Shown: in pieces, positions 1-57,361 of the stretch | How the letters are laid out: every line of letters starts with the position of its first letter | Position numbering within the stretch: position 1 is the stretch's first letter | Assembly (NCBI GenBank): GCA_030272155.1 | Contig: CP126198.1 | Coordinates: 4,588,001 to 4,652,000 of the forward strand | Source of the DNA: Tetradesmus obliquus | Taxonomy: Eukaryota > Chlorophyta > Chlorophyceae > Sphaeropleales > Scenedesmaceae | Length of the DNA: 64,000 bases | Direction: 5' to 3' | Program-made: the position numbers and the translations under genes | The notes under the pieces: model-generated | What the model was told of the DNA's origin: nothing | Databases searched by the model: none | The model's input: only the letters and a program-made list of their open reading frames with translations

Positions 1-2924
1 GTGCTCCTCACATGTCGCCCACAACAAACAACCACAACTTACAAACTGAGCCCCACCTGCAGGTTTTGGAATTGCTGGTAGCCCGTGTTGATGTCGTCGA
101 CCAGCACCTGACTCAGCACGATGATCTGCTGGTCAGGCTTGGCCACGAGGCTGTTCAGCGCCTTGTCCACCAGCCGCGCATGTGCATGTCAACGGCAGCA
201 CCTTACGAACAACGCGGCTGCTCAGCTGACCCGCCCGATAACCCGCTCGTGACTTCATAATTCTTCAAACAAAATCACAAATAACAACAGCCCACCTGCA
301 GGTTTTGGAACTGCTGGTAGCCTGTGTTGATGTCGTCGACCAGCACCTGACTCAGCACAATGATCTGCTGGTCGGGCCTTGCCATGAGGCTGTTCAGGGC
401 CTTGTCGACTAGCCTCCGCGGGCTGTTGCTCATCCAGTCATCGCCGTACTCGTGAAGGTACGGCTGACTCAGCGGCACAAACACGAGACCTGCATGTTCA
501 AAAAACACAGAAGTAACAACAAACTGACAGTCAGTTGAAGAAATGACAAGTTTGCAAGTTTTACTCCGGCCATTCAACCAAACAGGAGGAACGGTGAGGC
601 AAAGTAGTCGGTGTTATTGGTGCGTGTTCAGCGCCTTATCAACCAGCCGCCGGGGGCTGTTGCTCAACCAATCGTCACCGTACTCGTGAAGGTAAGGCTG
701 ACTCAGCGGCACAAACACGAGACCTGCAGGAGAAGTTACACAAAAGTAACATAGAAAAACAGTTAGTTGAAAAAGTGACCAGTTTGCATGTTCTGATTTG
801 GCAAATCAACCCAACAGGAGGAAGGGCGAGGCAAAAGTTTGGTGTCTAGTGGTGCGTGTTCAGCGCCTTGTCCACCAGCCTCCGCGGGCTGTTGCTCATC
901 CAGTCGTCACCGTACTCGTGAAGGTACGGCTGACTCAGCGGCACAAACACGAGACCTGCAAAAAATTCAGCCAGCACAACCGCACCAGCTCTCTCAGCTT
1001 GCATACAACCCTAATGCAAACACTCTGTAAAGACATGCAATGCCACACTTCTGCCACGCGACTCCAGGCCGCACCTGCGTGGATGAAGTAGCTGGGAGTT
1101 GGTCGTACTTGTACTCGCCTGGGTTGGCTAAGCACACACACAACAACTGACACTTGCAAGAACCGGCACGTTTTTCAAAGCATCAAACGGAACTGCACCT
1201 GCGTAGATGAAGTAGCTGGGCAGCTGGTCGTACTTGCAATAGCCCACCTTGGTCAAGGCAGGTGACATACAACAACCCACACAAGCGACGGACAGCACAA
1301 ATATAACTTTATCATGAATCACAGGCCGCACCTGCGTAGATGAAGTAGCTGGGCAGCTGGTCGTACTTGTGCACGGGCACCAGCGTCTGCAGCGGGTCAA
1401 GCTGCAGGTCGTACTCCAGCACAGAACCACCACGCAGCACCTGCAGGAGAAATAAGGCAGAAACCACCTACAGATATGAGAACAGGGCATTACAACAGAC
1501 ATTTTCACAGGCACGGGCAGCCTGCAGCGGGTCCAGCTGCAGGTCGTACTCCAGCACGCTGCCACCGCGCATGACATTCAACCCTTCACACCCCGAGCCC
1601 ACCTTGACGCGTGCCGTGCTGCCGGTGGGTTTCAGCGTGATGAGGCTTGTGAAAAAGATGCGCTCACGCGCCATGAAGTGCACCGTGCCTAGGCCCTGAA
1701 ATCCAAAACCGGGAACCCTAAGCCGTAACCCCACCTTGACGCGTGCTGTGCTGCCGGTGGGTTTTAGGGTGATGAGGCTTGTGAAAAAGATGCGCTCACG
1801 CGCCATGAAGTGCACCGTGCCTAGGCCCTGAAACACAAACCATAAACCCTCAGTCATAAACCCACCTTGACGCGTGCCGTGCTGCCGGTGGGTTTTTGGG
1901 TGATGAGGGAGGTGAAGAAGATGCGCTCACGCGCCCTGAAGTGAACCGTGCCATCATTAGCAATGGCCACTCCATCAAACTCCATCAGCACGTCACCCTT
2001 GCGCAACACCTACAGCAGCAGCAGCAGCAATGTGAGGCAGCAGCAGCACCAGCAACAACAAGCACGGTGAGTTGTTTGTGGTGGCCACTCCGTCAAACTC
2101 CATCAGCACGTCAACCTTGCGCAGCACCTGAGGGGCAGCAGCAGCAGCAGCAGCAGGCGCAGCAACAAGTTTGGGGTCCCACGGTCATAATGGCTACACA
2201 AACTGCTACTCTGGACCTGTGGCTAGCATGAATCAAGCCCTGTTGCCATTTATATGCTGTTTGTGGGCCAGGTGATCATGATGTCCGACTGACTGTTGGA
2301 CATAAGGTTTTTGATATTGGAACAACACAATTATATGGTGCTAGCGGCTGGATGTGGTGTATCATGACGACAGACTGGTCATTTAGTCACATCTTGACCA
2401 AGGACACGTACTGACCAAGGATCAAGGACCAAGGAAACGTACCGACGTGGTGCTGGTGGTGGGCCGGATGCGGTTGACACAAGACTTAACCATGAACACT
2501 AAAAACAACCGCATCACAGACACGTACCCACGCGGTGCTGGTGGCGGCTGGATGCGACGAGCATGGCGCCACACTGGTGATCACAATCATATAATGAATA
2601 TGATGGCTATCAAACTTATTCACCTGCGCGGTGCTGGTGGTGGGCTGGATGCGGTTGACACCAGACTGCTTGTTCAATATCCAACACAGCAAAAACATTC
2701 ACCTGCGGAGCCGGGCTGTTTGTTCAACATCCAACACGACAAAAGCATTCACCTGTGCGGTGCTGGTGGTGGGCTGGATGCGGTTGATCATGACACCTGA
2801 CTGGTGGGCTGCCATGCCCAGCGCGCGGCGCAGGTGCGGGTTGTCCATGGTCTGGAACACAATGCCCAGGGAGCAGAAGCCACGGTAGTGCCCGTACAGC
2901 ATCACCTCACTGCATTGACCGTAC

Positions 2925-2964
<40 letters not shown>

Positions 2965-5900
2965 TTAGTGTGCATTGGGGTTGTCCATGGTCTGGAACAC
3001 GATGCCCAGGCTGCAGAAGCCGCGGTAGTGCCCGTACAACATCGCCTCGCTGCAGTGACCGTACACAGCAGCAGCAGCAATTAGTTTGTGCATCGAGGTT
3101 GTCCATGGTCTGGAACACAATGCCCAGGGAGCAGCAGCCGCGGTAGTGCCCGTACAGCATCACCTCACTGCATTGATCGTACACAGCAGCAGCAGCAGCA
3201 GCAGCAACTTATCAGCATGAGTTTGCAGCCAAAGGAAGAGGCGACTTTGAACAACACAACAGCATCGGGTCACACCACATTGGGTGACTCAAGGCAGGTT
3301 CTAACCCTGACAGAACTGCCTAAGTAAGGATGATGTTGATGACAGAGCTGTTGAGTCAAGGTCTTTTAATCAACAACACAGGTGTTTGGTCAACCAACAA
3401 GACAGCACACCTGAGGAAGCGCCGCACCACTGGCAGCGGGATGATGTAGCCGATGTTGTCAGCATGCGGCAGGTTCTGGAAGGCCACGCCAACCACCACA
3501 TCACCACGCAGCGCAGGGCCGCCGCTGTTGCCTGCAGGCATTAACACAGCACGCAGCACATCCAAACCGTGCAGGCCCGGTGAGCAGACAAAGTGTTATC
3601 TTGTCTGTTGTAATCAAGGCATGTTCTAGAGGGCCACCCCAACCACCACGTCGCCACGCAGCGCAGGGCCGCCGCTGTTGCCTGCAGGCACGATAAGGAG
3701 ACAGAGTGTTTATCTTTCTGAGTCCATTTGAATTGCCATGAGTTGCCACGCAGCATGCACGCACAGGACAGAGCAAACATCTTAGACATTGTGTTACAGC
3801 GTCACAGTGTTGGCACACCTGGGTTGATGGCTGCATCAATTTGAATCATCATGAGGTGGCTTGCGACGTGCATACACAGACACGTCATTCTTCAACCGTT
3901 TTAGATTGCAATATGTACTGCAATCTGTATCACACACCTGGGTTGATGGCTGCATCAATTTGAATCGCCATGAGGTGGCTTGCTGCGTGCACGTACTGCG
4001 TGACTTCCACGCGTGACACCACGCCGCTGGTGATGCTGGTGTTGTCGCCGCCTGTGGGGTAACCCACCACCAGCACTTGCTCCTGCGCGCGGCAGGATCA
4101 AATAATACACAAACAAAATATGCACCATAATGTTCAGGTGAAGTCAAGTAAACACACAAGTACTTCGAAGGCTGGTGCAGTGAGGACTGCATATGCAGGG
4201 ATCCTACATCATGAATCCTACGCACCTGCAGCTGCGGCACGTCTCGCAGCTGCAGCGGCTTCATGGGCCCACCCTCCTCGCTGCCACCCTCCCCAACTAC
4301 ACATCGTAAGTAGCAATGACCAGCAGATGCAGTTCGTGTAAGCTCTCACCTGCAGCTGTGGCACGTCCCCAAGCTGTAGGGGCTTCATGGGCCCTCCCTC
4401 CTCACTGCCTTCCCAGAAGGCCTCATCCTCCACAGTAAGCAGCGCCAGGTCCACGTCATGACCCACACCGACCACGTCTGCGAGGATGACAGAATCAACC
4501 AGCAGAAATATTGGCAGCAGCAGCAGCAGCACACAGGCTTCTGTTGGTCAGAGCTGGTGGGGTGGCAGCAGCAGCAGTCGTAGGAGGCACACCACTCATG
4601 GCGGCTGCCTGCTCTGCATGCCACTCATCACAACAAGCATACGCAAAAGCAAACAGTGCATGCATACACACCACAAAGCAAACAGCGTGTGCCGCACCTG
4701 CCCTGTACTTGGTGCCGCTGCCGTGGCGCTTGACCGTCACATATGTCTGGTCAGCCACCACGTGTGCATTGGTGAGCAGCAGCCTGTCCCGGATGACAAA
4801 GCCGGTGCCGGTGCTTTCACGCTTGGGGTGGTTCTGCCACGGCAGGAAGTAGTCTGGCCTGCAAAACATCATAAAAATGACAATTTGGCAGTCAGAAAGT
4901 GAGCAGCAGCCTGTCCCGGATAACAAAGCCGGTGCCCGTGCTCTCCCCCTGGGGTGGTTCTGCCAGAGGAGGAAGTAGTCCGGCCTGTGCGGTGGAGAAT
5001 ATCAAAATAACAAAATGACGATTTCATAATGATCCAGAGGAATGTGATGTGTGAATGGCGTTCAATTTGCAGCAACTGTAGGCAGAGCATTGGCTGATTT
5101 AACATGCAGGAAGCACGCCAGCAGCTGGACGTTGTCTGTCTGTCTCCAGGCTGATAGGGCAGCAGCTGCAGCACTTGGCACGCCCAGCTGCTGGAGCAGC
5201 ACTTGCACAGCAGCCAATCAAGTTGCTTGCTGTCCTGGTCCTGGCGATCCTGATGCTGTTCGTGTGATTGTCACAAGTACTCAAGCGGCTGCAGCGCTCG
5301 AGGAGCATGATGTGGCCATAAAGAGTCACTGCTGCCTCGTTGGTTAGGAAGCAGCATTCAGGCTCCCTGTACAACGAGGCAGCAGTGACTCTTGAAACAA
5401 CAAGCGATGCCAGAATATTCCGGCCATGACTCGACTCATTGCGGTTCTAGCGGTTCTAGCAGCCTGTCAATAATACGGTTATACTGTTACTAACAGTAGT
5501 GTGCATCCAACTGTTGCCCCTCTGCCAGTGTGCAGCGCACACGGTTCTGCATCCTTTACTATCCTGCATGTAAAGCTGCTGCAGTCATTTTGAATGCAGG
5601 CAGGCAGCATCATGTGCTAATGCTACTGCCATTGCACTCCGGACAAACAGTAGCCGACTACAACAGCCTGAGGGTGTGTGCTGTGCTTGAGCAAAGCGAA
5701 AGCCCAGCCGCTCTCTTGAGGCCGCTCACGTAACCGGCTTGAAAAAGCCGGCTGTGGTTTGTGAAACCGGGGGAGTGGTGCTAGATTTCGCTGCTGCAGA
5801 GGGTTTGGCACATTCAGCTGCACAGTGGCTGCAGCCAGCGACTTGGGTTCTTCTGCGCTATGCATGCATGCATATGCGATTGCTGGCGCTGCCCCACACG

Positions 5901-6341
5901 CTGCAAAGCTGGAAAGCAGCAACTGATCCTAAACCCTAAACCATACCTTGAGTAAACAGTGTACACTTTGACTATGGAGTCCAGCACTTCCACACCCCGG
6001 GCAAACTCAGTAGGCTCGTCAGCAAGGCTGGCAAGCGCCTTTCTGGCTGTCTCAGTGTCCCATTTCGGCTTGATTACGGGTGCTTTTGCCGCAGTAGAGT
6101 TGCAGATGTGCCTGCTAGCCGACAGCTGCCGCAGCTGGGGTACTAGGGATGGCAGCTGCGGAGCCTGGGGGCGGGCATGATGCTGCTGCTGCCGATGCTG
6201 CTGTAGCACGGCCGCGCATGCAGGCATCGGCGCTGCCAAGTGCCTGACACCACATTTTAGAGAGGGTAGCTGAAGCATGCTCGCGACGTGTGTGCTGCTG
6301 TACAAAGAGACCCTATACAGGAAACTTTTGGCGAACATCAA
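1..6341 (-). CDS. DEG: DEG9/DEG10-type trypsin-like serine protease with PDZ region (3' end outside window)
   Basis: ATP-independent HtrA-family protease. Modelled exons on the minus strand: 6341-5947, 4858-4698, 4477-4350, 4082-3938, 3531-3411, 2909-2753, 2009-1866, 1440-1332 and 489-296. All phases agree and give 518 codons before the gene leaves the window. The catalytic triad is visible: His164 in TNAHVV, Asp195 in HDVDLALL and Ser279 in PGNSGGPA. These are followed by GVAFQNL...NIGYIIP, which is typical of plant DEG9/DEG10, then a PDZ-like part ([19 protein letters not shown]) and the C-terminal part with [16 protein letters not shown] and [13 protein letters not shown]. The first about 100 residues are rich in Arg, Ser, Ala and His with almost no acidic residues, which suggests a mitochondrial presequence (inference; plant DEG10 is mitochondrial, DEG9 nuclear). 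The start is the first Met of the open frame; an internal Met near 6276 is an alternative. Almost every exon has partial copies in its flanking introns. Divergent from the starch synthase gene. Confidence 0.93.
51..190 (-). repeat. downstream copy of DEG exon 489-296
   Basis: Repeats the 3' two thirds of the exon ([13 protein letters not shown] region) with few changes and again ends in a GT donor context. The parent or the copy could be spliced to the next exon, which lies outside the window. Confidence 0.85.
600..957 (-). repeat. two upstream copies of the 5' part of DEG exon 489-296
   Basis: Copies at about 600-722 and 862-957 carry the acceptor plus the [22 protein letters not shown] part of the exon, then diverge into intron sequence. 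They lie upstream of the intact exon on the minus strand, so they are candidate decoy acceptors. Confidence 0.85.
1070..1240 (-). repeat. two downstream copies of the end of DEG exon 1440-1332
   Basis: Copies at about 1070-1115 and 1195-1240 repeat the [17 protein letters not shown] exon end together with its donor (GTGCGG type). A further, upstream-side copy of the exon start is at about 1503-1571. Confidence 0.85.
1597..1830 (-). repeat. two downstream copies of the end of DEG exon 2009-1866
   Basis: Copies at about 1597-1699 and 1730-1830 repeat the [12 protein letters not shown]...TARVK-coding part. An upstream copy of the same exon's start lies at about 2072-2128, so this exon has copies on both sides with the expected polarity. 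Confidence 0.88.
2447..2663 (-). repeat. three downstream copies of the end of DEG exon 2909-2753
   Basis: Short copies at about 2447-2480, 2525-2558 and 2627-2663 repeat the [17 protein letters not shown] exon end and donor region. Divergence differs between copies, which suggests repeated rather than single duplication. Confidence 0.82.
2978..3185 (-). repeat. two upstream copies of the start of DEG exon 2909-2753, separated by (CAG)n
   Basis: Copies at about 2978-3063 and 3090-3185 include the acceptor and the VMLYGHYRG...GIVFQTMDN coding part. The copies and the true exon are separated by CAG runs of different length (about 2927-2962, 3066-3081, 3185-3207), so the microsatellite is part of the repeated unit. 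Confidence 0.88.
3616..3863. repeat. partial copies around DEG exons 3531-3411 and 4082-3938
   Basis: About 3616-3690 repeats the start of the GNSGGPA exon with its acceptor but reaches a stop after about 20 codons. About 3819-3863 repeats the end of the IQIDAAINP exon, including its donor. The catalytic-serine exon is therefore preceded by a decoy that would truncate the protein. Confidence 0.85.
4222..4290 (-). repeat. downstream copy of the end of DEG exon 4477-4350
   Basis: Repeats the [15 protein letters not shown] coding part and donor with a handful of substitutions. Confidence 0.85.
4901..4985 (-). repeat. upstream copy of the start of DEG exon 4858-4698
   Basis: Repeats the acceptor and the PDYFL.WQNHP...[13 protein letters not shown] coding part, but breaks off before the catalytic His codon and runs into a stop. 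Confidence 0.87.
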
Positions 6342-7876
6342 TCACGCATGCTGCAGCGTTTCCTGCTAACAGAACACTCAGATGCAAGTAATTTACTGTG
6401 GTTGCTTCTTGGTTGCCTCGGAAGCTTAGATCGCAGCGGGAACAGAGCAAGGGCTGTGAAAGTCACTGACAAGGCTCGAGGGTGTCAGAAAGGTCAATTG
6501 CCTAAACGCATGCACGTATCAATCTGATCAATTGTTGGTGCTTCGTGTCACGTGCGAACGAGGAGTGCAGTGGACTCCACCACTCTGGACTATCTGCATT
6601 TCTTGTGCAGGGTCCTGCTGGCTACATTCACTCGCATTGCAACAAATAAAACACTACAAAAGTAAACGTTGCACGGGCCGCAGCATTTGCACGCTATGCG
6701 CTGAGTTCCCAAGTGCAGCACGTCTGAAGCACTTTCATGTCGGTCAGTTCAAAGTGCGCTGGCTCAGCCGGCCTCAGGCAGGCTGGGGTCAATGCCGTTC
6801 CAACCCCTCTAGGTAAGGGCATTGCTGCAGGTCGCCGAAATGCTGGCTCGCGAGGGCAACCCCTGACTTGGTCCCCTCTCTGCTGCCTAGGTGCTCGCCC
6901 ACGACTCTCCACCCTGCGAGCTGGCGATAGCAGTTCCCTCAGGAGGCTATGTGCAGCACAGCAGCGTCCCAGGACCCGCCAGGTGCGCCAGTGAAGGAGA
7001 GCGCGCAGATAGCGAAAAGCGAGACTGCTTTCGGTCCGATCTCGCGTCTGCCCCAATGCAGCGAGGCAAATGTGCAGACAAATGTTCGTATTTTATTTTG
7101 ATATTACAGATCCACATTGGGTTCACCCGTCGAAAGCAGGAACGGATTGAATGCAGCAGCAGCACTGCCCCTCAGGCACAGCCCGGCATTTGCAGCCCGA
7201 TCGCCTGCATGTTCACTTTGGCGTGTCAAAAGCCATTTTGGGACGTCACAGAAGCTTTCAGCATTGCCAGTATTGCTGCTGCAGCATAGAGTGCTCCTGA
7301 GTCTGCTTACTGCAGCTGTGTTGGCAGCAGCGGACATATGTAGCGCGACCAATGCAGCAACTGCAATGCACTTTTGACTCCCTGCATGCATCTTTAGATT
7401 CAATCTCAGTCAATTTACTTTTAAGGCAGTGTAAGAACACTAGGCTTACTTCAAGCGGCACAAATGCGGCCACCGTGCAAATGCACTGCCTGCGAAACTG
7501 CAATGCAATTGTGCAACCCACACACCGGCGGAACGCACGTCTTTGATTCTAATGCAATGCATGTGGATAACACCGCAAAAAGCATCAGACCTCTTTCTTG
7601 CTGACCAACGTAGTGCATCCCACTGTCTTGGAACGATCAGAGCAGTGTGGTGGCATTCGCTTGCACAGGCCGTCATCGACTGTGTGACACCAATCATGTG
7701 ACCCGCGTTACATTGACCATTATGTTATTTATATGTTACAGGTGGATGTGTCGGTTGCCAGCCAGCTGCCTCAGGCTGAGCTTGAGGAGCTGCTGGCTGA
7801 GGATGCAAAGCAACTGTAAACACTCGTGACAACTTATAACATGTTAGTATGTGTTACTTTTATGTTACTTCTGCAG
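6342..7876. other. region between the divergent DEG and starch synthase III genes
   Basis: DEG starts at 6341 on the minus strand. The first resolved starch synthase exon is at 7877 on the plus strand and is preceded by an intron acceptor, so the starch synthase first exon (plastid transit peptide) must lie in this interval. Ser/Ala/Arg-rich open frames around 7117-7300 could contribute, but no splice path could be chosen. The bidirectional promoter should lie here; no defined promoter element was recognised. Confidence 0.5.
7742..7816 (+). repeat. upstream copy of starch synthase III exon 7877-7993
   Basis: Repeats the ASQLSQAELEELLAE coding start with an AG acceptor and ends after about 25 codons. 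The existence of this acceptor-side copy supports an intron, and not the transcript start, upstream of 7877. Confidence 0.82.
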
Positions 7877-10800
7877 GTGTCCGTGTCAGCTGCCAGCCAG
7901 CTGTCTCAGGCTGAGCTGGAGGAGCTGCTGGCTGAGAATGCCAAGCTGAAGCAGCTGCTCAACAGCTACGCACACAAGCTCAAGCCAGAGCAGGTGGGCA
8001 AAATGGCCGTTTTACAGTATGCAGTTTGAATGTATTCAAGGTTGTCGGTGCCTGCACATGTTATCTGTGAAGTCTGCATGGAACGCGAAGAAGGGTGTAG
8101 CTGGCATACTTTGTCGCTATCACCGCGGGAACCTGTCAGTTCCCTTTGCCGCCCTCCCGTCTTGTTAGGACCCGTACTAGCCCAGCGGTCTTTTACCTGC
8201 TATTGAGAGTTAGATTGCATGGAACAAAGCGATCGGCGCATCAAGTATAAGACCAGGTTGATGACGAACAAAAGCGGGTCCTTGGAACGATTGTTATGCG
8301 GTAGGCATGGCATGGAGAACTCATCCGAGAGCAGGGGCAGCGATTAGTTACTGTACAGTTGCTTGAGCGCATGCTGAATGACCTGCCTCAGAGCATATGA
8401 GCCTCCGAGTGGACTGTGTGACTCCTGCAGCAGCCATGCTCGTAGCAGCTCAGCCCTGCAGCAGTTGAAGCAACAGCGGCACCATACAAATACATGTTGG
8501 CATGGTGCTCCAGCTTCGTAAAATGAATTGTCTCTGTCTCCCTGCTGCTGCTGCTGCTGCTGTCAGGTGGAGAAGCTCACAAAGCAGTATGAGGAGATTG
8601 CTGCACTGGCAGCAGCAGCAGGCCTGCAGCTAGAGCCGCTGCCGCTGCCAGGCACGCCAGGGGCACCCGCTGCACCTGCTGCTGCTGCTGCTCCGGCTGC
8701 CGCTGCCGCGCCTGCTGCTGCTGCTGCTGCCGGCAGCGGCCCTGCTGCAGCAGCAGCAGCAGCAGCACCTGCTAAGCCTAAGGCGGTTGAGTTTGCAGAT
8801 GACAAGGTGGGAAGGGTTCTGTTTGTATATATGTATTTTGTAGTTTGTTTTCTGTGCTGCCGTGGCTGGCGCATTTGCTGAAGTGTCTGTCAAATGCGAG
8901 GCAAACAGAGAGCTAATAGCTGTGAAAGAAACCAGTATACCTGACCAAGCATTATGGCTATAAACAGCACAAAGGACGGTTTGTATCTGTTTAGACGACC
9001 TGGAATGCAAGCGCGTAGACAGGCAAATTACCCGGCAGATAGGTAGATAGGCACATCGCCTGTTATGCAGCCAAGCACGTCGCCGACGGGCACACCTTGC
9101 CGTAACCCCAAAACACTTCGCCACAACCCTACACCTTGTAAGACCCTTGCTGAACATTTGAACCTGTTCAAAACACTGGTGGTACAGGTGAAGGCGTGGG
9201 TGGAGAAAAAAGGGGATGTGCTATCATTCAAATTCGAACCCAACGCGCCAAAAGGGAAATCTGGCTCAGCAGCAGCAGCAGCACCCGCAGCAGCAGCGCC
9301 GCAGGCGCAAGCAAAGCCAGCAGCAGCAGCCCCAGCAGCAGCAGCTGCAAAGGCGCCAGAGCAGCCCAAAGCAGCAGCAGCAGCAGCCAATGGGCAAGCG
9401 CCGGCGCCAGCAGCAGCTGCGTCAAACCCTCCTGCTGCTGCGTCTGCTGTCGCAAACTTCATACAGGCCACGAAGAGCAAGGCCACTGCTAAGCCCACAA
9501 CACCTCAGCCGGCAGCAGCAGCACCAGCAGCAGCACCAGCAGCAGCTCCAGCAGCAGCTCCAGCACAGGCTGGCAGCAGCAGCAGCAGCAGCAGTGGCGG
9601 CAAGAAGTGGCGCTCAGCAATGGGAGAAGATGACAAGGCACCTTCAGCAGCAGCAGCAGCAGCAGCAGCACCTCCAGCAGCAGCAGCAGCACCTGCTGCA
9701 CCCAAGGCGCCAGCACAGCCCCCACAAGCTAGCAGCAGCAACAGCAACGGCGCAGCAGCAGCAGCACAGCCAGCAGCAGCAGCAGCAGCTGCCGTCCCAC
9801 AGCAGACAGGCGGTCTGCGGCCGCCGCCTCCTCCTGCTGCTCGCGCAGGCAATTTGAAGCTAACCCCTGCACCCCAGCAGCAGCAGCAGCAGCAGCAGAA
9901 GCCGCCTGTGCAGGAATTCACAGGCCCTACTCCAACTAGCCCGCTCTTTGGCAGCAGCAGCAGCAGCAGCAGCGCAGCACCTGCTGCTGCTGCTGCCAAA
10001 GCCGCGCCGCCGGCTGCAGCAGCGCCTAGCAAGGCACCAGCCGCCGCCAGCAGCAGCAGCAGCAGGCCTGCCGGCAGCAGCAGCAGCAGCACTGCGATCG
10101 TGGATGTGGGTCCGCCTCCGCCTCCTCCTAAAAAGGAGGAGCCTCTGGACATTCCTGATCCAGTGGAGAAGGCTGTGGCAGCGGTGAAAAAGCTCACCCC
10201 TGAGGAGCAGGCTCGGCGTGATGAGGCAAAGCGTGTGCTGCGTGCCAATGCGCAAAAGGAGGTTGACACGCATGATCCAACAAAGCTTGCGGCCACGCGG
10301 CACAGCTGGCTCATCTTCACAGTGCCTGAGAAGCCCGTGGCAGGTGCGCTAGGGTTCTGCAGTTCGTGTTTGGGGTTTTGCTGTGGGGTGAGGGTTTGAT
10401 TGCCCCAAAAATGCGACCACGCGGCTCAGCTGGCTCATCTTCACTGTGCCTGGGAAGCCGGTGGCAGGTGGGATCAAGGGTCTTGCGTTGCACTCAACCT
10501 GGCTGTGACGGCGCCTGCGAAGCCGGTGGCGGGTGCGTTGAGCATCTGCTGCGTTGTGCAAAGTAAAGCTGGACAGTCTAGCATGAAAATTGCAAAGCTG
10601 CGCACCTTCAAGCATTGCTTGTCCAGGAGACCTCCCGCCCAAGGTCCCCCGGCGCTCCAAGTGGGCTGTCTACGCAAGCACTGCTGTCCAGCATCATGGC
10701 ATCATAGTATCATCACTGTGCCTGCTTCTTTGCCACAGCTTGCTGCTCTGGCAGCATTGGGGTTGCTGTGTTCACGGTTTGGGGTGTGCTGGGGAGCCAT

Positions 10801-13800
10801 AATCAACTAACCTTATTTTCCTGGTCTTCTTGTGCAGGCGCGGACGTCATGATCTACTACAACCGCACTCAGAGCGAGGCGCTGCGTGAGCGCAACCGCA
10901 TCCAGGCAACCCTGGGCTACAACGCATGGGAGATGAACCCTGAGCAGGCGCGCGTGGACTTCTACCCGAGCCCCATCCCGCACGTGGACAACTCCGACTT
11001 CTGGGCGACGCGCTTCAGGGTGAGTGGCGGTGTGAAGTTGGGTGTGAAGTTTGTGGTGTGAAGTCCTTGGTGTGAAGTTGGTGGTGTTGTGGTGGGAGAA
11101 TGACATCTACCCGAGCCCCATCCCGCACGTGGACGACTCCGACTTCTGGTGTGGTTGATTACCATCAATAATCAAAGCAACACGCTATCACAAACCGCCC
11201 TCCTGACGTTATCACCAGGTGAGTGACTGGATGTCACAAGACTTTTGTCAACATGTGTCACTATCTGTCATTTTTGCAGATCCCGGAGAACGTGTACGAA
11301 CTCAACTTTGTGATGACGGACGGCGAGTCGCTGTTCGACAACAACAACGGCCAGGACAATCACTGCTGCCTTACTGTCACCAACTGTCACATACTGTCAC
11401 TAACTGTCATTTTTGCAGATCCCGGAGAACGTGTACGAGCTCAACTTTGTGATGACGGACGGCGAGAGCCTCTTTGACAACAACAATGGCCAGGACTACA
11501 CCTACGCCCTGCAGGCGGGCATCACCTGGGAGGAGTGGCAGGTGCAGGCGGTGGAGCGGGAGGAGGCGCAGGCACGCGCAGCAGTGGAGGCGGAGGAGGT
11601 GCGGCGCTGCGGTTGACTTGGTATGTTTGGGCATGTTTGGGCATGCGCGGTTGGGCATGCACGGCAACCAAGTGCGGCTCCCAGGGCTGAGATGACGCTG
11701 CTTGTTGGCATGATGGCTGTGGGTATGCCGGTGGTTTGCTTGGAACTGCCGGGCGTTGTCGTTGACCTTGCTGATCTTGTCTTGCTGCTGCTGCTGCTGC
11801 TGCTGCAGGCGCGGCGTGCGGAGGAGGCCAAGCAGGCTGCCGAGGAGAAGAAGAAGCGGGACAGGGACAACGCCACCAAGCGCGTGACAGGTGCGGCGTG
11901 TGTGTTTTGTATTTTCCTGCACAGCCATGGCGTGTGTGAACTTTTTGCTGGCTTCAGGCAGCAAGGCCAGCAAGACAACATGTGCAATTGTTTGTTGAAA
12001 AAACGAGAAATGCCTGTGTGTGGCGTATTTGGGTGCGGCAAAGGCAGCAGCATCCAGTTATCGTGCATCCAATCAGGATCCAGTGCTTGTTTTTGCACCC
12101 GCAGACCTGAAGAACGGCTTTAGGTGGCTGCGCGAGGGCGGTGTCAACAAGCGCAAGGTCAGCGATGACCCCAAACAAATCAAATAAACTTACCATTGAT
12201 TTATTTGTCGTTTTCTCCCACCCCGCAGACCTGAAGAACGGCTTTGTGTGGCTGCGTGAGGGCGGTATGAACAAGCGCAAGGTGTCTGATGACCCTGATG
12301 CCAAGACCTGGTGGAGCATGGCACCCACCCCCATCTCACAAACCTCTTTCAACCCTATGTTTTCACCCCGCAGATCTGAGAAATGCTTTATTGTGTGACC
12401 CGATAAGCAGCATCCACTTATCGTGCGTCCTGTGCTTGTTTGTCATACCCGCAGACCTCAAGAACGGCTTTGTGTGGCTGCGCGAGGGCGGCGTGAACAA
12501 GCGCAAGGAGAACGACCACATAGAATCACCATCAAAACTTTGCGTGTATTGCTTCTGTTTGTTGTATCTATCCACCCCGCAGACCTCAAGAACGGCTTTG
12601 TGTGGCTGCGCGAGGGCGGCGTGAACAAGCGCAAGGTGTCTGATGACCCTGATGCCAAGACCTGGTGGAGCGTGGCACCCACCCCCCTGGTGGCTGGCAA
12701 GACAGCCACGCTGCTGTACAACAGCAAGGCGGGGCCGCTGGCGTGGATTGAGGACAAGCGGCCCAAGGGCAAGGTCGTCACATCAAGTGGGTGACAAAAA
12801 TATGACGTTATGTGACATTAGTGTGACAGCATTGTGACAGAGTGTGACACAAGCTGTTGAAGTAAAGACAAGCGGCCCGAGGGCAAGGTCGTCACATCAA
12901 GTGAGTGACAATGTATGACAACATCGTCGCATTTGTAACATGTTAAATTTGCTGTGTTGCGGTAGGGAGAATTGTGGAGAGCCAGCTCAGCACAGTTGAG
13001 CTGCCATCAAGGAGCAGCCTCTGCCCACAAGGTTGTTACATCGCAAGTCACATTGTTACACCATATGTTACATTTATAAACATGTTGTGTGTTATTTCTG
13101 CTGCAGAGATGATGCCGGAGGGCCAGCAGGTGCCCAAGCTGCTGCGCGGCTTCAACAACTGGGCCATCAAGGAGCAGCCGCTGCCCATGAAGTTGTTATG
13201 TCATTGCTACATTTGTAACGTGTTACGTGTTAATTCTGCTGCAGAGACGATGCCGGAGGGCCAGCAGGTGCCCAAGCTGCTACGCGGCTTCAACAACTGG
13301 GCCATCAAGGAGCAGCCGCTGCCCATGAAGTTCAGCCGCATCACCGGCGAGGAGGATGAACTCTGGTGGGAAGTTGACTTTGAAGTTCCCAAGGACGCGG
13401 CCTGCGTGAACTTCGTGGTGAACTGCGAGAACGGCTGGGACAACAACGGCGGCAAGGACCACAAGGTGGGTGGGGCTTTGGGGTTGGTTTGAAAAATAAG
13501 TGAGGCAGCCGACATGACAGTGTGACACAAGTGCAGCCAGGGGGATATGCAGCCGGAATTGCTATCACTGCGCCTACCTGTGGCGATCAAGGCCTCCACA
13601 ATCAACTCACTTGCCGTTAGACCGCTGCTGTTGTAGCTGAAGTTCTCGTCACGCAACGCTCCTGGGGCTGCTGACATGTGCACATTCAAGGCTGATGGAT
13701 GCAAACACATTGCCGCTGCTACTGCAATGCACGCGCAGGTGGCTGTGGCACTGCCGCCGCCCTACACGGCTGAGACGGTCAACGAGTGGGCTGAGTCCTT

Positions 13801-15431
13801 CTTTGAGGGCTTCCTGGCTGAGGAGACTGCCACGCGGCTCAAGGCAGAGGAGGAGGCAGCGATCAGGGACGCCAAGCGGCTCAAGGAGCGCACGGAACAA
13901 AAGGTGAGTTCAGTAAACTGACGCTGCTTTTGTTGTTGAGGCCAAAACAGACAGGTTATCTTGCAGACTGTGCGGCAGTCGGAGATGCCAAGCAGCTCAA
14001 GCAGCGCACCGCAGTACAGGTGAGAGCTTGGTTTCTGGTGTTTGATCGCTTCTGGTGTAAGAGGGCTTCCTGGCTGAGGAGACAGCAACAGCGGCTCAAG
14101 GCAGAGGAGGAGGAGGCGATCAGGGACGCCAAGCGGCTCAAGGAGCACACCGAGCAAAAGGTGGGATGCATTGTTGATGGATTCACAGGAAGAGCAATCT
14201 AATAGTCCTAAGTGGGTCCTGGTCGTCATTTATGGGCCCTATAACAATGCCAAAGATAGGAAGAGCCACAAAATATTGGGTTGTGACTGCCGCCGGGGCG
14301 GAGTCTGCTGCTGGATATGGTGCCTGGCGACCCTGCCAACACTTTGGCTCTGCAGGCCATCAACAGCATGCGTGTGACTGTTAAAAAGTGCTGTAGCACA
14401 CAGCTAACACACTCAAATGTGTCTGTTGTGCCTGCAGGAGAAGGCCAAGGCGGTGCTGCGGCGGCAGATGAAGCACGTGATGTTCACGGAGCCATCATAA
14501 CATCTCAATGCATGATTTGACTGTTATAACATAATTTGAATTGCCTTGACTTTCTGTGCCTGCAGGAGAAGGCCAAGGCGGTGCTGCGGCAACAGACGAA
14601 GCACGTCATGTTCACGGAGCCATCATATCATATTTCAAAATGTGTTGAACTTATGTGCCTGCAGGAGAAGGCCAAGGCGGTGCTGCGGCGGCAGATGAAG
14701 CACGTCATGTTCACGGAGCCTGAGGTCATTGAGGCGGGCAAGCCCGTCACGGTCTACTACTGCCCCGACGACACAGCACTGGCAGGCAGCAAGTGAGCGC
14801 CTTTTTTGTTTTGGATTGTTATTCTTTGACTTTAAAAACCTGTTTAAATTCCGAGGCGGGCAAGCCCGTCACGGTCTACTACTGCCCCGACGACACTGCA
14901 CTGGCAGGCAGCAAGTGAGTGGTATCACTGTGTTGGCTGCAGTCTACCTTTGCAGCAGCTCCAAAGTGCTGCATCGGTGACGACTCCCGTCATGCTGTGG
15001 AGGGAACAGCACCAACAGCGCGAGGCGGAGCAAAGGCTTTCAAATTTCAGACATCGCTTGCTGTTCATGTTGAGCGTACAGCTAACACAGTCTTCATTTG
15101 TTGTGCTGTGCTGCTTTGCGCTGCTGCAGCCAAGTCTACTTCACAGGCGGCTTCAACCGCTGGGCGCACAAGCGCCAGCTGGGCCCTGCAGCGATGCGAC
15201 CGCCAGGCATCAACGGCAGGCACTGGCAGGTGAGGCTGCTGCTGCTGCTGCCGCTGCTGCTGCTGCTGAACCAGAGGCAGCATGTATCAGCGTGTTGAGC
15301 TTCCTATCATCAAGCCGTGGGGTTAACAGCACAATTGTTGCTCAGCCCTGCTTGACGACGCGCTGGGAGGGCAGCTGTAGGCTGTGCCTGAGGGGCAGCG
15401 CTTGTCATAATGATCAAGGAGGAGTGCTCAG

Positions 15432-15463
<32 letters not shown>

Positions 15464-16111
15464 CAGATTCGCTTCAACGTGCCCAAGGACGCGCTGCAGC
15501 TGGACTTTGTGTTCAGCAACGTGCCAGGCGGTGACGGCCTCTACGACAGCCGCAGCGGCTTCGACTACCACCTGCCCATAACCGTGAGTATGTTTGACTG
15601 GCAGCAGTGTGTTTGACTGAGCTTCGACTTTGTTTGACCCAGGCATTGACTGTAAAGTGAACGGCCTGTATGACAGCCGCAGCGGCTTGGACTACCACCT
15701 GCAGCTCATGGTGAGCTGGGGACACAACATGTTTGACTGTCGATACTGTGTTTAACTGACGGTAGACTGTGTTTGACCAGGCGTTGCCTGTGGAGCGACA
15801 GCTTGTATGACGGCCGCAACGGCTTCAACTACCACCTGCCCATCACTGCAAGAGGCATGTGTGATTGGCGGCAGGGTTCATCCAAGTGAGAAGAGTTGAC
15901 TTCGTTTGACCGAGGTGTGCAGGCATCTATGACAGCCGCGTTGTGAAGATGCTTGGGGGTTTGCACGTGGGCAACATCCCGGCTGCAGCCACTCACGCAA
16001 CTGCTGCTGCTGCTGCTGTTTCTTGCAGGGCGGCATCGGCAAGGCCTGGGCGGCTGCACGTGATCAACACCCCTGCTGCAGCATCCCACAAACACACACC
16101 CACACCCTTCA

Positions 16112-16145
<34 letters not shown>

Positions 16146-27312: not shown

Positions 27313-27318
27313 TCACAG

Positions 27319-38386: not shown

Positions 38387-40624
38387 GCCGCAAACAGCAG
38401 CAGCAGGCCCAGCCGCTATAGCTGCAGCCTTGCTCCCATCCCTTCATGCTCAGACTTGAGCTGCAGCACCCGGCTGGAAGGTGTTACAAATTATAATTCA
38501 AATTTAAAAAATAACAACAGCCGGCTCGATGATCTGGAGGCGGTGCGGAAGCTGCTGCTTGCTGAGAGGCACTATGTGCCAGTGGTGGAGCTGTTGCGGG
38601 GCCACTGGGGTGCACTGCTGCTGCAGTGCGGCTACCAAGCATGTGAGTGGATCGTTTGTTGGACCACCGGTCTTGTTGCTATGTATTCTGGTGTGATGTG
38701 ATGCATGGTAGCACGTACATTGTTTTGCCCCACGATACTGCGCTGTGGCGCAGTGCGGCTGCCAAGCATGCGAGTGCCAGAAGCTACTGCTATGTGATGC
38801 TGTGCTGTACATGACCTGCATGGTTTTATTGCTTGCAGTCAGCGCAAAAACCTGCTATCGCTACTGAGAAGTTCAAGTGAAGTTGTTGACATGCTGCGTT
38901 CGTTGTGGTTCCGGCAACGCAGCAAACACCTTGCTCGACACATGCATGTGCTTGTTGTACTAAATCTGTCACGATGTGCATTGCAGGGATCGCCGCTGCG
39001 CTGCATTTGGGCATCAACTGGCTGTTCAAACATTTGAAGCTGTTGCAGGTGCATCTGCGCTTGTGAATGTACTGCTCTATGTGCCATGTGCATTGCAGGG
39101 AGTGCTGCTGCGCTGCATTTGGGCATCAACTGGCTCCCCGGCTACTTCCTGAGGCAGGCGGGGCTGCCACAGGCCCTCGTGCTGTGGATGCTGCTGTCAT
39201 CCATTGCGCTGTTTGCTGCTGCGGTGCTGGCAGCGGGGGCAGCAAGCGACAGAGGGGTGGGCCGGCTGCGGGCGACGATGGTGGTGTGCGGCATTGCAGG
39301 CAAGTATATTCTACATATATGAATTGGTTGCCGCTGTTGGTTTTGGTGTGGATCTACTAAGTTCACTAGTGCGGTTTGCTTGCAGTCAGGAGGCAGTGTG
39401 TCTGTGACGTCAGTGCAGAGCATCGGGTCGTGCAGTCCCTCGTGCTGTGGATGCTGCTGTCATGCATTGCGCTGTTTGCTGCTGCTGTGCTGGCGGCCGG
39501 GGCTGCAAGCGACAGGGGCGTGGGCCGGCTGCGGGCGGCAATGGCTGTGTGCGGCATCGCAGGCAAGTGTAGGGCGCTGACCCTGGTGATGATATATAGC
39601 TGATATCAGAAATCCAGAGGGTGCAACGCTCAGTGATTGAAGACATCTCAGGCACAAGAAGCACGATGACACAGTACAATGCTAGCTGGCTAGTTTCTTC
39701 TGTTGCCCCTGCTGCAGCCGGTCTTGCTGGCTTGCGACATGCAGCCAAAGCACCACCATGCTGCAGCAACCCTAATGTGGTGCACTGGCTGACTGCCTAC
39801 ATCCTTGCTGCTGCTGCAGCCATCAGCTCTATCCCCATGTTCATCGCCCTCAGCAGCAGGTCCCTTGCCGCCTGCTGGCTGACTCAAGCTGCCACGCTGG
39901 CGCTTGCGGGCGCTGCTGCGGGCATGCTGCCAGCTATGTGCTGCTCGCTGTACCCTGCTGGGGTGCGCATCAGCGGCGTGTGCCTGGGCTTCCATGCAGG
40001 TGCGATAGTGCGTGCTGTGTGCATGCCCAGAAGGTCATGACAGATCGTTGTTGCAGTGAATTTTACGTGTGTTTGTGATCATTGGCATGTGCTATTGCGC
40101 GTACCTGGCTGGTCACGTCTGCTGCAGTTGCGCCTGCCCATCGTTGCTCTGCATGTTGAGTGCAGCAAGCAGGTCACGTGCAGGGTTAGCTATACATGCA
40201 TCGCAGTGTTTGGTGCATTCGCTGTGCATGTGGATCAGTGACCAGCCTCGGTAGCAGTCAATGTGCTCTGCTCTTTTCTGGTTCAAACGTGAATGCCACA
40301 TGACAAGAGTGACATGGTGAACTCCTGCCTGGCTTGTGCTGTTGCGCTGCCGTGTCCTCGCCCCTTGCAGGCATGCTTGCTTTTGGCGGTGAGGCGCGTG
40401 ACTGCGACTGTTGGTGGGATCTGGATTGACAGGTGGCTTCATGTAATCAGAAAGCAGTGTGTCTGCAGCTGCAGCCGGCAGTATGCTGTGCGCACACGTG
40501 GACCACAGCACAGTAAATTTCGCTGTTGGATCACGCCATTGCAATGCGTGCTTGCTTGTGCAGTCTCAACTTGTAACCAACCATATCACCGCGTGACTGG
40601 GCACCACTTCTTTTCTGCCTGCAA

Positions 40625-45405: not shown

Positions 45406-47148
45406 CTGCACAGCCAAACAGCCACACAAGGTTTTAGGGTTGAGCAGTCAAAGGTGCTTAGGGTTGAGCAATTGGATGTGCTGTTAAGGTTGAGCAGTGA
45501 AAGGGGTGGCGAGAACAAGATGCACAAGAGCCGGCAGAATCATGCACAGTGTGAAGGTTGAGCAGTTGAAGGGATGTGTTGCAGTCAAAGGGATGTGTCA
45601 ACAAGATGTGTCAACAGGATGGCGAGAACAGGAATGCACAAGAGCCGCCAGGAGCCACTGCTGCTGCGAGACCGCCGTCGCTGGAAAGCACAGGCAGCAG
45701 CCGATGTTTTCAAACGACGCCGGCCCGGCAGCAGCAGATTGAGCATTGCTCTGCGCTACAGCTGCATTGAGAAACAGTGCCGCACCACCACCAACAGCAG
45801 CAGCAGCAACACGCCGCACCTGAAGATGATGGTGCCACCGGTCGCAAAGAAGCGCCACCAGTAGCCCGCCACAGCCGTCAGGATCATTCCGTTTGCAGCC
45901 ACGCAGGGCAATGCCGCAAACCATCGCAAAACAGGGACGCAGCTGTTACAGGCCGCACACACAACAAACCCCAAATACAACAGACCAAAATCAGACTGCG
46001 CCGCCGCACCTGAGGATGATGGTGCCGTCGGCAGCAAAGAACAGCCGGCCATAGCTGCGGCCAGTCTTGACGCCGCTATGATGCCGATTGCTGCCATCAG
46101 AATGCGGCCACAATGCCAGGTTGCACATTACACGGGCGCAAACCACCCCAGATGGCAGCAACAACAACCCAATCTGAACAAAAGTAGACGGAAGCACTGC
46201 CGCACCTGAAGATGATGGTGCCGTCAGCCGCGAAGAAGATGCGCCCGTAGCTGCGCCCCGTCTTCAGGTCGCGCCGCAGCGCCCACGTCTTCTCCTCCTT
46301 CTGCGTCTTGTCGTAGTACTCCTGTGTAGCAAAAGAAAGCATGCAGCGTTTGTTGAAAGCAGTGCAGGGCCCTGAGCAGTGTGTCAAAAAAGCCTGCGGC
46401 CTCAAAGTGAAACTGCCATTTTCTGCCTCTTGTCGTAGTACTCCTGTGTATTTAGCAAAGCAGGACACAATACGCAGTTGTCATTGCAATGCCTGTGTGT
46501 TCAGATAGGCGCCCACGTCTTCTCCTCCTTCTGCGTCTTGTCGTAGTACTCCTGTTTAGCAAAAGAAAGCAGGGGGAACACGATGTGAGTGTGGTTGTTA
46601 TTGAAAGCCCACGTTGTTGAAAGCGCACAGCCAGGAGGCCCACGTCTCTTCCTCCTTCTGCGTCTTGTCGTAGTACTCCTGTGTAACATAAGAAAGCACG
46701 AGGCGTTTGTGCGAAAGCAGCGTGGCACAAAGGCCTGCAGCCTCACCCCAACCCGCCACCTTCTGTGTCTTGTCGTAGTACTCCTGGAGGCGAGAACCGC
46801 ACGCTGTGTTGATCAAGCAGTAGAATACAAAAGCCTGCGGCCTCACCCTACAACCTGAAACTGCTACCTACAGACACGGCAATTGAACAATGTTGCTAAC
46901 TTAGCAATGCTAAGTGAGGGGAGCCAGTCGCTGCACAGCTGCCTCAGCTACCAATGTAACGGCACCCCAAGGCGATGCCTCTGTCCTCACTTTCGGCCTA
47001 AAGACGATGCCTCTGTCCTCACTTTCGGCCTAAAGACCACGTCGCCTTACATCAACCCCTGACCATCGCACCTGGTAGCGCGGGAAGCCGGGCGGCACGA
47101 AGCGCGGCTTGACCATCATGTTCAGCTCCTTCTCCGTCTCCTCAAACT

Positions 47149-48325: not shown

Positions 48326-48365
<40 letters not shown>

Positions 48366-48440: not shown

Positions 48441-48480
<40 letters not shown>

Positions 48481-48549: not shown

Positions 48550-48592
<43 letters not shown>

Positions 48593-55120: not shown

Positions 55121-57361
55121 ATGGAGGCCCGTGACGCGTTCATGCTGTACGCCTGCCCCAGCCTGGGAGCGCTGCTGGCCTTCTGCATGTTCATATCACC
55201 CATGCGCGCAGTGTTGGCCGTCAACAGGCGCAAGCAGCTTGGGGTGAGTTCATTATGCAGAGCACTGCAGCATGCATATGCCAGTGGCTACCCAGTCTGC
55301 ATCAGCAACTTCGTGTTGGCAGTTGGCATGGCTGTCACTGCTTGTTCGTGCAGCTGCTGGTGCCCAGCAGCAACCGCCCGCAGCTTGTGTTCAGCATTTG
55401 CACAGCCGTCTGTAATGCGTGCAGATTGTCTCATGCAATCATCTACATCTCGCGCTTGCTAATTCTCTCACAAGTGTGCACACCTGCTTGCACACTTGCT
55501 TGCCCCTGCAGGAAGTGAACCCGCTGCCCTTTGCTGCCATGATCGCCAACGGCATGGGCTGGCTGGCCTACGGCCTGCACATCCATGACTACTTTGTGTT
55601 TGGCAGCAATGTGTCGGCGCTGCTGCTGGGCCTGTTTTACGTGATGACAGTCAGCAAGTTTGCTGAAGAAAAGGTGCGCCTACTGCAGCACGCACGCAGG
55701 CCTCTGATTTATTGATGCACGGTGTGCCTGCTTTTGAGTAGTAACACATGCGGTGTCAGTGCCATTGCATGCTATGCTGTCAGTGGCATTGATGCACGCT
55801 GCTCAGTTTGGCAGCTTGCTTATTCAAGCGTGTTGCCGTCATTTAAACTGTTACAACACCAGAACGCGCCCCTGGAATCGCCCGCAGGTGCAGGACTTGC
55901 TGCGCAACATCCTGCTGGCGCTGTGCTGCTTATTCCTGGCAGTGTCTCTGGTGTTCATGCTGTTGTCTGCGCTTCAACACACCTGATAATTTGTCTCTTG
56001 CAACACCTGCAGATGCAAGGACCTGCTGCGCAACATCCTGCTGGCTCTGTGCTGCCTGTTCCTGTCATTGTCTCTGGTGTTCATGTAGTTGTCTGCGTTT
56101 TAATGCACTTGACAATGTGTCTCTTGCAACACCTGCAGATGCAAGACCTGCTGCGCAACATCCTGCTGGCGCTGTGCTGCCTGTTGCTGGCAATGTCTCT
56201 GGTGTTCATGTTGTTGTCTGCGTTTTAGTGCACTTGACAATGTGTCTCTTGCAACACCTGCAGATGCAAGACCTGCTGCGCAACATCCTGCTTGCGCTGT
56301 GCTGCCTGTTCCTGGCAGTGTCCCTGGTGTTCATGGGGGCTGGGCTGGATGCGGCAGGCAACAAGTCCCTCTGGTGAGCAGAAAGTGCTGTGTACAGTAG
56401 TTCCTGCAAGAGGGTTCCTCAGCTAAAGTTGTGGTGTTGCTGAAAGTTTGTGGTTGTTGGACTGTAGCACAGGCTTTCTGTGCTGAGGAGGAGAGGTGGT
56501 GATGTATCAGCAGCAGGCAGACTAAGCAGATGCAGCTGGCACAAGCAGCTTTGAGGGCGCATTTGCGCTGCTGAGTACGCACATGCGCACCTTCTATGCC
56601 ACCTGTTGATTTCACAGCTGCCTGCGGCTTCAGCAGGCAACACTGCATACCTCCCCAGAGTTTAATGTTACAGAGCATTGTCTGCACAACTCAGCTGACA
56701 GTGCCACTTTGGGTTCTGCAACTTGTGCAGGGGCTCCACTGCGGTCGCCATCCTGGCCATCTACTATGTCAGCCCCCTCACCACGCTGGCAAAAGTGCTG
56801 AGGCGCAGAGACTCTTCCAGCCTCTACAGGCCAATGCTCATCGCCAACATTGGAAACGGGCTGCTGTGGTTTGCGTACGGACTTGCAACACACGACTGGT
56901 TCCTAATCATGCCAAATGGCATCGGTGCAGCATTCAACGTGCTGAGTTTGGGCATTAGCTTGATGTTTCCAGCAACGGAGCGCAACAAACGCCTGAAGCA
57001 GCAGCGGCAGCAGCAGCAGGAGCAGGGGCAACTAGGGAGTTTCAGCAGGAGAGTGAGTGACTCAGCAGCTGAGGACGCAGTTGGTGGTTCTGCTGCCGGC
57101 ACGCGTCCGTTGTCCTGGTTGACAGGCATAGCAAGGATGCCTGGCAGCAGGCAAACAGCAGCAGCAGGGGGAGGAGGTGTGTCGCCGTTAGCAGCAGAAG
57201 AGGCGATTCACGGTCCTGACCGGATGTTAGACGCGCAGGATGGGACAGATTTCAGAGCAGTTGCAGCAGCAGAGCAGCAGGCACTGCATGTGGTTGGATT
57301 TTCAGCTGCCAGCAGGACACATCTAGGAAGGTTTGACGGGAAAGACGACAGCATTGTTTGA
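55121..57361 (+). CDS. SWEET: SWEET (MtN3/saliva) sugar uniporter
   Basis: Bidirectional sugar transporter with seven predicted membrane helices (two MtN3 triple-helix bundles and a linker helix). Exons 55121-55243, 55512-55673, 56264-56373 and 56731-57361 are all in phase (341 residues). The first bundle (about 1-95) has MFISPMRAV with the TM1 proline, then EVNPLPFAAMIANGMGWLAYG. The linker helix is LLRNILLALCCLFLAVSLVF. The second bundle has IYYVSPLTTLAKVLRRRDSS and ANIGNGLLWFAYGL, with the paired Asn and Pro residues expected of the substrate pathway. The cytosolic tail (about 120 residues) is Gln/Ala/Gly-rich and longer than in most land-plant SWEETs. The linker-helix exon is preceded by three tandem copies (from 55888). 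Confidence 0.95.
55888..56263 (+). repeat. tandem exon-plus-intron copies before SWEET exon 56264-56373
   Basis: Copies begin at 55888, 56013 and 56139; the true exon begins at 56264, giving a period of about 125 bp. Each unit has the acceptor, about 70-80 nt of linker-helix coding sequence and about 50 nt of intron. A unit spliced instead of the true exon would read into a stop or a frameshift. Confidence 0.92.

Follow-up and report, generated by a model that had tools for sequence, protein, structure and literature searches.

Why do introns in one region of the Tetradesmus obliquus genome carry partial copies of the exons beside them, and why do these copies lie in a fixed order? We addressed this question in a 64,000-nt stretch of a 5.92-Mb contig, here called the window, from a genome of 104.66 Mb in 17 contigs. 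The window contains a DEG gene (HtrA-type protease) and a starch synthase 3 (SS3) gene, and the original prediction had held that in these and five other genes copies of exon starts lie upstream of the intact exon and copies of exon ends downstream. For comparison, we sampled 20 further 10-kb loci at fixed positions (1.0 Mb on all 17 contigs and 3.0 Mb on three), giving 264 kb in total. The exons of DEG were fixed by mapping P0001, an independent DEG protein of 647 aa whose source sequence, at 2.2 kb or less, is transcript-like. Those of SS3 were fixed with P0121 (OEZ85_014309, a starch synthase protein belonging to a second T. obliquus assembly), of which 1413 of 1486 aa were placed. All other genes were represented by models from a self-trained splice-aware gene finder (GT-only, repeat-masked version), which labels many copies as exons. 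Its labelled coding share of 16% agrees with the 15.7% coding sequence given for T. obliquus UTEX393, with a mean intron of 462 bp, in an excerpt of PMC5966456.

In DEG and SS3 the order held without exception. Copies were found at 29 of 61 protein-defined borders, a count that leaves out SS3 blocks ending between 8000 and 10000, and all 41 copies had the claimed polarity. The 20 exon-start copies lay upstream and the 21 exon-end copies downstream, two of the latter being copies of the end of the last SS3 coding exon (about 20720), not of a donor. The splice dinucleotide was retained in 38 of the 41. At gene-finder borders over the 264 kb, 133 of 157 border-copy pairs followed the same order (donor copies lay downstream in 72 cases and upstream in 7, acceptor copies upstream in 61 and downstream in 17), and 77 of 95 copies kept the dinucleotide when arrays of more than five copies and locus L017, which holds a satellite-like array, were excluded. 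Thirteen of the 24 exceptions fell in the window; 10 of these, in DEG and SS3, disappeared once the exons were taken from proteins, since at those places the gene-finder models had either included a copy as an exon or extended across it. The remaining 14 come from gene-finder models. Polarity and retention of splice sites thus held up as predicted, and the further claim that most internal exons are affected fits DEG, where 53% of mapped coding nucleotides have an aligned copy, and not SS3 (27%).

This polarity calls for no special mechanism, since a tandem duplication over a splice border leaves its truncated arm on the intron side. On this view, a local direct tandem duplication, typically about 120 nt long, would have left each copy as its truncated arm; the duplicated unit would comprise 30-120 nt of exon, the splice site and some intron. 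A unit across an acceptor, duplicated in tandem, would give the order intron, exon start, intron, exon, with the first arm truncated; a unit across a donor would give exon, intron, exon end, intron, with the second arm truncated. If one exon is to stay whole, a tandem duplication can give no other order. Whole-exon copies are expected just for short exons, given the unit of about 120 nt and a similar exon length. A mechanism with a polarity of its own, as had been proposed, is not needed, because ordinary tandem duplication forces the direction.

Next, we consider the extent of the duplications. Self-comparison of the window, which had been proposed as a check, was run and gave 81 matches, mostly local and direct: 73 were direct repeats within 1 kb, 3 were inverted within 1 kb and 5 were others, with offsets clustering near 110-160 bp and at multiples thereof. 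One junction was shared across the copies of an array, for example at 14438 and 14566 or at 625 and 857. Border copies are widespread in the genome. At least five local direct repeats were present in 15 of the 20 other loci, which pooled held 164 direct and 6 inverted repeats within 1 kb, and repeat offsets in the sampled loci were most frequent at 110-130 bp, and a second peak stood at 230-250 bp. In gene-finder models over the loci (L017 excluded), 133 of 281 exons and 172 of 532 borders had a copy, and duplication spans covered 27,188 of 116,608 intron bases. Local duplication at exon-intron borders, on both strands, is borne out by these data. That it is ongoing, as also claimed, is at best hinted at: identity of at least 95% was reached by 2 of 71 matches spanning exon and intron, by 24 of 127 mostly-exon matches and by 6 of 64 matches without a labelled exon.

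The duplications are not spread evenly over the genes. Among 107 gene-located duplications with offsets of at most 175, 96 spanned a border, 10 lay in an intron only and 1 was internal to an exon; these classes exclude 16 duplications in unlabelled sequence, larger offsets and L017. Random placement of a unit of about 120 nt in the gene models gave 49.5% border-spanning, 44.4% intron-only and 6.1% within one exon. Border-spanning copies are in excess (96/107 versus 49.5%); this may reflect the anchoring at borders that the original prediction had claimed, or the poorer detection of intron-only copies. The sole exon-internal duplication has an offset of 105 nt, a multiple of three that keeps the frame, and the near-absence of this class fits selection.

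The intron beside the splice site was part of the duplicated unit. Between positions +7 and +20 (best shift, 3 allowed), intron identity was 0.68 at donors and 0.71 at acceptors, compared with 0.44 for unrelated introns, and flank identity went down to 0.51-0.54 at 36-50 nt from the splice site (profiles cover repeat-free introns at offsets below 175). Among 59 spacers, 17 were closer to the tandem-predicted flank than any of their controls (up to 25 each), with about 2.3 expected. Breakpoints on the intron side have mostly decayed. No recognisable intron likeness was found in 27 of 65 adjacent pairs (identity at +7 to +20 of 0.6 or less, near the unrelated level), and the first 30 exon nucleotides were at least 90% identical in 47 of the 65. 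For the donors of DEG and SS3 (21 copies) the drop was abrupt, from 0.86-0.95 up to +5 (0.67 at +4) to about 0.24-0.67 thereafter. Partial splicing and reintegration, one of the routes suggested in the original prediction, is rejected because the intron belonged to the unit, with a similarity that fades over about 50 nt.

We then compared the coding parts of copies and exons. The copies mostly differ from their exons as working genes do, unlike decaying junk, and the set is mixed. The 136 copy-exon pairs, from 92 borders, showed 283 synonymous and 172 nonsynonymous changes, a ratio of 0.61 (95% confidence interval 0.48-0.77, by bootstrap over borders); with the nearest copy only, the counts were 212 and 115. 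This final set covers arrays of up to five copies and omits L017 (an earlier set had 162 pairs), and copies walked over fewer than 27 coding nucleotides were not counted. The expected ratio is 2.78 for one free branch under the substitution spectrum of the aligned introns, and about 1.5 for a free copy and a constrained exon by our arithmetic with an assumed omega of 0.1. With protein-defined exons, the 384 codon pairs of DEG held 62 synonymous and 20 nonsynonymous changes and 1 stop, and the 505 of SS3 held 45 synonymous and 39 nonsynonymous changes. In addition, serine was kept across a switch between the TCN and AGY codon blocks in 6 of 128 serine codon pairs, where 0.13 were expected from the rate of TC/AG double changes in introns; one event accounts for three of the six, so that four codons are involved. 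In the protein-defined exons there are six distinct switched serine codons, at 1910, 2872 and 1425 in DEG and at 12639, 11467 and 20707 in SS3. These differences fit a history in which copy and exon each served as a working exon during their divergence, in other words as different alleles. The truncated ends showed no general splice motifs (arrays of more than four copies excluded): GT stood at 4 of 59 acceptor-copy ends, and AG stood at the truncated end of 13 of 59 exon-end copies versus 5 of 59 at the corresponding place in the intact exon, a weak excess.

The individual copies in DEG illustrate these features. The gene maps with P0001 to 293-6302 on the minus strand, as do all of its copies, with exons at 293-493, 1330-1440, 1863-2009, 2750-2911, 3413-3532, 3936-4085, 4350-4481, 4699-4860 and 5946-6302. 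In a comparison with PDB it aligns to Arabidopsis DEG9/DEG2, and the alignment passes over most copies that the query still contained. Downstream of exon 293-493 lies an exon-end and donor copy (57-175) with Lys in place of the Arg of the intact exon; upstream are two acceptor and exon-start copies, 625-723 (10 synonymous and 1 nonsynonymous codon changes) and 857-955, with a common exon/intron junction. Exon 1330-1440 has two exon-end and donor copies (1065-1112 and 1199-1236) and an exon-start copy that has lost the acceptor AG (1506-1571). The two exon-end and donor copies of exon 1863-2009, at 1603-1689 and 1735-1821, both encode Leu where the intact exon has Gln, and an acceptor and exon-start copy lies at 2082-2127. 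For exon 2750-2911 we found exon-end and donor copies at 2443-2477 and 2624-2658, and acceptor and exon-start copies at 2978-3049, with a serine block switch, and 3097-3167. Acceptor and exon-start copies of exons 3413-3532 and 4699-4860 are present at 3618-3681 and 4950-4984, and exon-end and donor copies of exons 3936-4085 and 4350-4481 at 3819-3872 and 4226-4285. The annotated DEG model OEZ86_014578 (P0016) looks incomplete, with a late start and 365 aa versus 647 aa for P0001.

Other DEG sequences bear on the origin and age of the copies. No copies are present in the transcript-like P0001 or in the annotations P0016 and P0121. P0001 and P0016 differ at 2 of 353 residues, and both sites fall in copied stretches, where the copies have the residue of P0001. 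P0014 (GHRR01027342), a transcript-derived protein from a related alga that shares 89% identity with the DEG query across 73% of the latter, runs past the DEG exon end LKPTGSTVHVKVG and has the repeat LKATGSTAPVKVG 43 codons (129 nt) later (residues 414-464). None of 2000 shuffled tails matched the score of this repeat, and the T. obliquus copies of that same exon end lie at 131 and 263 nt. The P0014 repeat is an exon-end and donor copy, downstream and of the same unit length, exposed by intron read-through; the protein would fit inheritance or independent origin alike. Five further algal DEG proteins, read by eye, had no duplicated exon edge, and as spliced products they are uninformative on introns.

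The same arrangement recurs on the opposite strand in SS3, which P0121 maps to 6737-20721 (plus strand) in 33 blocks and which includes the GT5 catalytic part; its repeats we take to be of the CBM53 type (a Pfam name). It aligns to starch synthase 4 in the PDB comparison, again with a jump over most copies left in the query. Acceptor and exon-start copies, all on the plus strand, lie at 7742-7811 (exon 7874-7996), 11280-11357 (exon 11419-11598, with a serine block switch), 13107-13194 (exon 13245-13465), 18590-18652 (exon 18738-18861) and 20444-20491 (exon 20554-20721). Exon 12583-12786 has three such copies, at 12105-12159 (with a serine block switch just past the copy), 12229-12332 and 12455-12508 (exon part identical), as well as an exon-end and donor copy at 12867-12900. 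Two acceptor and exon-start copies of exon 14665-14792, at 14438-14493 and 14566-14621, have the same junction, and its exon-end and donor copy at 14853-14914 is followed by unrelated intron past the donor. Exon 16287-16441 has acceptor and exon-start copies at 16029-16069 and 16153-16195 and an exon-end and donor copy at 16523-16602. Further exon-end and donor copies are found at 10412-10467 (exon ending 10343), at 14061-14160 (exon 13739-13903), and at 17817-17860 and 17932-17976 (exon 17639-17743). Exon 19865-20032 has an exon-end copy at 20182-20224, and exon 15467-15583 has two decayed ones at 15661-15710 and 15797-15847, the second without its donor. The end of the last coding exon is copied at 20750-20838 and again at 20949-21057. 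Compared with the window, P0121 differs at 5 of 938 inner residues (blocks starting between 8000 and 10100 and block ends excluded).

How did the copies arise? We tentatively propose, with a confidence that falls just short of an even chance, that they come from break repair, by strand extension and then end joining, on a template that was probably often a diverged functional allele. A double-strand-break end in or near an exon would be extended on a homologous template (synthesis-dependent strand annealing); the extended end would fail to anneal, the introns mismatching, and would be end-joined. Copying would stop after about 100 nt, the unit size being that of the copied tract. The template, or a later exchange partner, would often be a diverged functional allele, and selection would remove units wholly within an exon and keep cases with an intact exon. 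We infer the allelic template because the differences between copy and exon are of the coding type, and break repair as a process that would yield the geometry, unit size, direct orientation, sharp exon junction, diverged introns and allele-like differences in one step. Several observations weigh against this proposal. Intron-only duplications fall below random expectation (10/107 versus 44.4%), a deficit that would follow from plain tandem duplication only under a strong detection bias; it may be partly a detection effect. A first, cruder codon count, from which high-scoring segment pairs consisting mostly of CAG-type repeats had been dropped, was near neutral decay, with 456 changes at first, 417 at second and 855 at third codon positions (the last being 49.5% of the total). 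That count looked neutral because gene-finder labels treat some copies as exons, and cleaner sets shift to a synonymous bias. Copy-to-copy changes within arrays are also nearer neutral (104 unique nonsynonymous and 78 synonymous), and both comparisons indicate that the copy set is a mixture. Furthermore, the relative P0002 shares the Leu and the Lys, so that the copies may keep an ancestral state, and none of the 39 nonsynonymous differences of SS3 copies falls at the 5 residues at which P0121 varies. Finally, if the P0014 copy goes back to a shared ancestor, copies can be of old date and maintained, as opposed to recently templated.

Plain tandem duplication on one chromosome, by replication slippage or unequal exchange, followed by neutral decay of the copy, would also account for the geometry, the direct orientation, the arrays and the polarity. 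Substitution divergence in the aligned intron (12.8%) is close to that at third codon positions (14.7%), and some copies have plainly decayed, such as those at 15661-15847. Neutral decay is at odds with the synonymous bias (0.61 versus about 1.5), the serine switches and the retention of splice dinucleotides in 38 of 41 copies, and few young full-unit duplications are seen (2 of 71 at 95% identity or more); we regard this explanation as unlikely, if still the most credible of the alternatives. A lower probability attaches to copies that are maintained or used, as alternative exon edges in some transcripts under weak purifying selection, and that are possibly old. Coding-type divergence, the kept splice dinucleotides and introns free to diverge would all follow, and the P0014 transcript has an exon-end copy 129 nt past the same DEG exon end. 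However, P0014 reaches its copy by intron read-through and the protein terminates there, some copies run directly into a stop (such as the one at 14438), and the truncated ends show GT in 4 of 59 acceptor copies and the weak AG excess of 13/59 versus 5/59. We set aside as unlikely the idea that the copies are functional exon pieces, given truncated ends generally without donors and the absence of copies from P0001, P0016 and P0121.

We also considered whether the copies reflect two diverged haplotypes joined by the assembly with overlaps of about 120 nt. The differences between copy and exon do resemble allelic ones, a second T. obliquus assembly (OEZ85) differs in protein, and a related Scenedesmus is described in an excerpt of PMC7955037 as likely diploid with separated alleles. 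An artefact of this kind is nevertheless very improbable in a genome of 17 contigs for 104.66 Mb with zero N in 264 kb: arrays contain three or four distinct copies with one common junction, duplications inside exons are nearly absent, the unit length is regular, and the independent P0014 transcript of a relative has an exon-end copy. Slightly less probable still is that the copies are old and that gene conversion with the intact exon has homogenised their exon part. Exon parts at least 90% identical over the first 30 nt in 47 of 65 pairs, with intron identity at or below 0.6 in 27 of 65, are what such conversion would leave. By our reasoning, however, if the local exon were the donor, the nonsynonymous share should be at or above that of neutral decay, not lower, and local gene conversion alone was rejected on this ground. 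Conversion works solely with another functional allele as donor, at which point it merges with the repair explanation set out above.

Known systems resemble these duplications in part. Short, closely linked duplications in primates are attributed to synthesis-dependent strand annealing in excerpts of Pace et al. 2009 (PMC2671141). As described there, such repair-mediated vertebrate duplications are likewise short and closely linked, and duplicate exons and splice sites; what differs in T. obliquus is direct tandem units near 120 nt, present at roughly half the sampled exons of a small algal genome, with coding-type divergence. In C. elegans helq-1 mutants, according to excerpts of PMC8654963, direct tandem duplications arise from failed strand annealing and are joined by polymerase theta, the unit being the tract copied before end joining. 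Those units are reported to be about 100 bp-10 kb long, with a median of about 1 kb (PMC8654963), whereas the units here have a narrow size range near 120 nt and occur in a natural genome. Intron gain by tandem genomic duplication similarly involves tandem duplication of coding regions beside splice signals; here existing borders are duplicated and the truncated ends are generally without splice sites (GT in 4 of 59, AG in 13 of 59 copies versus 5 of 59 intact exons), and we did not adopt that explanation. Introners also add abundant intronic sequence, but were rejected because no shared element was found among the window self-matches or with the one array that was queried against the genome: window matches are nearly all local, to the copy's own exon, 5 of 81 self-matches were neither direct nor inverted within 1 kb, and the array matched one place. 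Mutually exclusive exons also fit poorly, the copies being truncated and without a donor at the truncated end, and the proteins examined lacking them. Two matches to HTH_61 (PF20470), a domain that we take to belong to Hel308/HELQ/POLQ helicases, were found in T. obliquus (G000:C4:2778859-2778993 and G000:C9:2101788-2101913); the domain was present in 3 of 14 control genomes, all archaea. Loss of this helicase family in T. obliquus is thus not indicated. No earlier description of the pattern was found in the open-licence PMC literature searched.

Exon-edge copies were also recorded in other genes of the window. Among the seven genes named in the original prediction, DEG and SS3 bear out its polarity, and few matches were seen in the NYN and coiled-coil genes; its interpretation as a whole is partly supported. 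In the NYN gene, represented by a gene-finder model, two stretches are repeated (25339-25471 and 25552-25685, minus strand). The MHS/MFS transporter gene (plus strand) has an acceptor and exon-start copy of exon 36479-36682 at 36325-36379, an exon-end and donor copy of exon 37768-37858 at 37976-38019, and two exon-end and donor copies at 39170-39308 and 39433-39571, either of which may be used. The transporter model of the second assembly, OEZ85_014310 (P0138), looks incomplete and is without the exon that is found twice in the window. In gene-finder models, four exon-start copies lie at 46421-46786 upstream of border 46321 in a gene of unknown function (minus strand), and the SWEET gene (plus strand) has three exon-edge copies with a period of 125 at 55881-56210, upstream of the copy starting at 56264.

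Repeats of other kinds were seen as well. CAG/CTG-type trinucleotide runs are common across the whole window, often between exon copies, and palindromic (self-complementary) stretches of 41-83 nt occur at 5321-5393, 8609-8688 and 27273-27313. The sequences at 58562-60589 and 62879-63972 recur at a distance of 3.3-4.3 kb with 71-83% identity, and the probable reason is a tandem gene duplication at the window end. Two of the sampled loci carry satellite-like arrays, one at L017:1-3959 with a unit near 274 bp and about 95% identity, the other at L005:1-1135 with a unit near 191 bp.

The copies are an annotation hazard: a simple gene finder takes many of them for exons, and the public DEG model is truncated. 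If confirmed, the duplications would be a concrete source of the long introns of T. obliquus and a natural setting in which to study how near-perfect splice sites close by are ignored in splicing. If the copies are templated by alleles, they would be a direct record of repair between diverged homologues. A further idea, which we consider doubtful, is that the copies are no debris and form, in a species whose alleles are very diverged, a standing reserve of exon edges, to which repair on the other allele would add splice-competent edges or refresh them. Were this so, such an edge could become the working one after loss of the intervening sequence. The exon edges, together with the introns beside them, would be replaced over time with the protein visibly unchanged, and allele divergence would drive intron growth.

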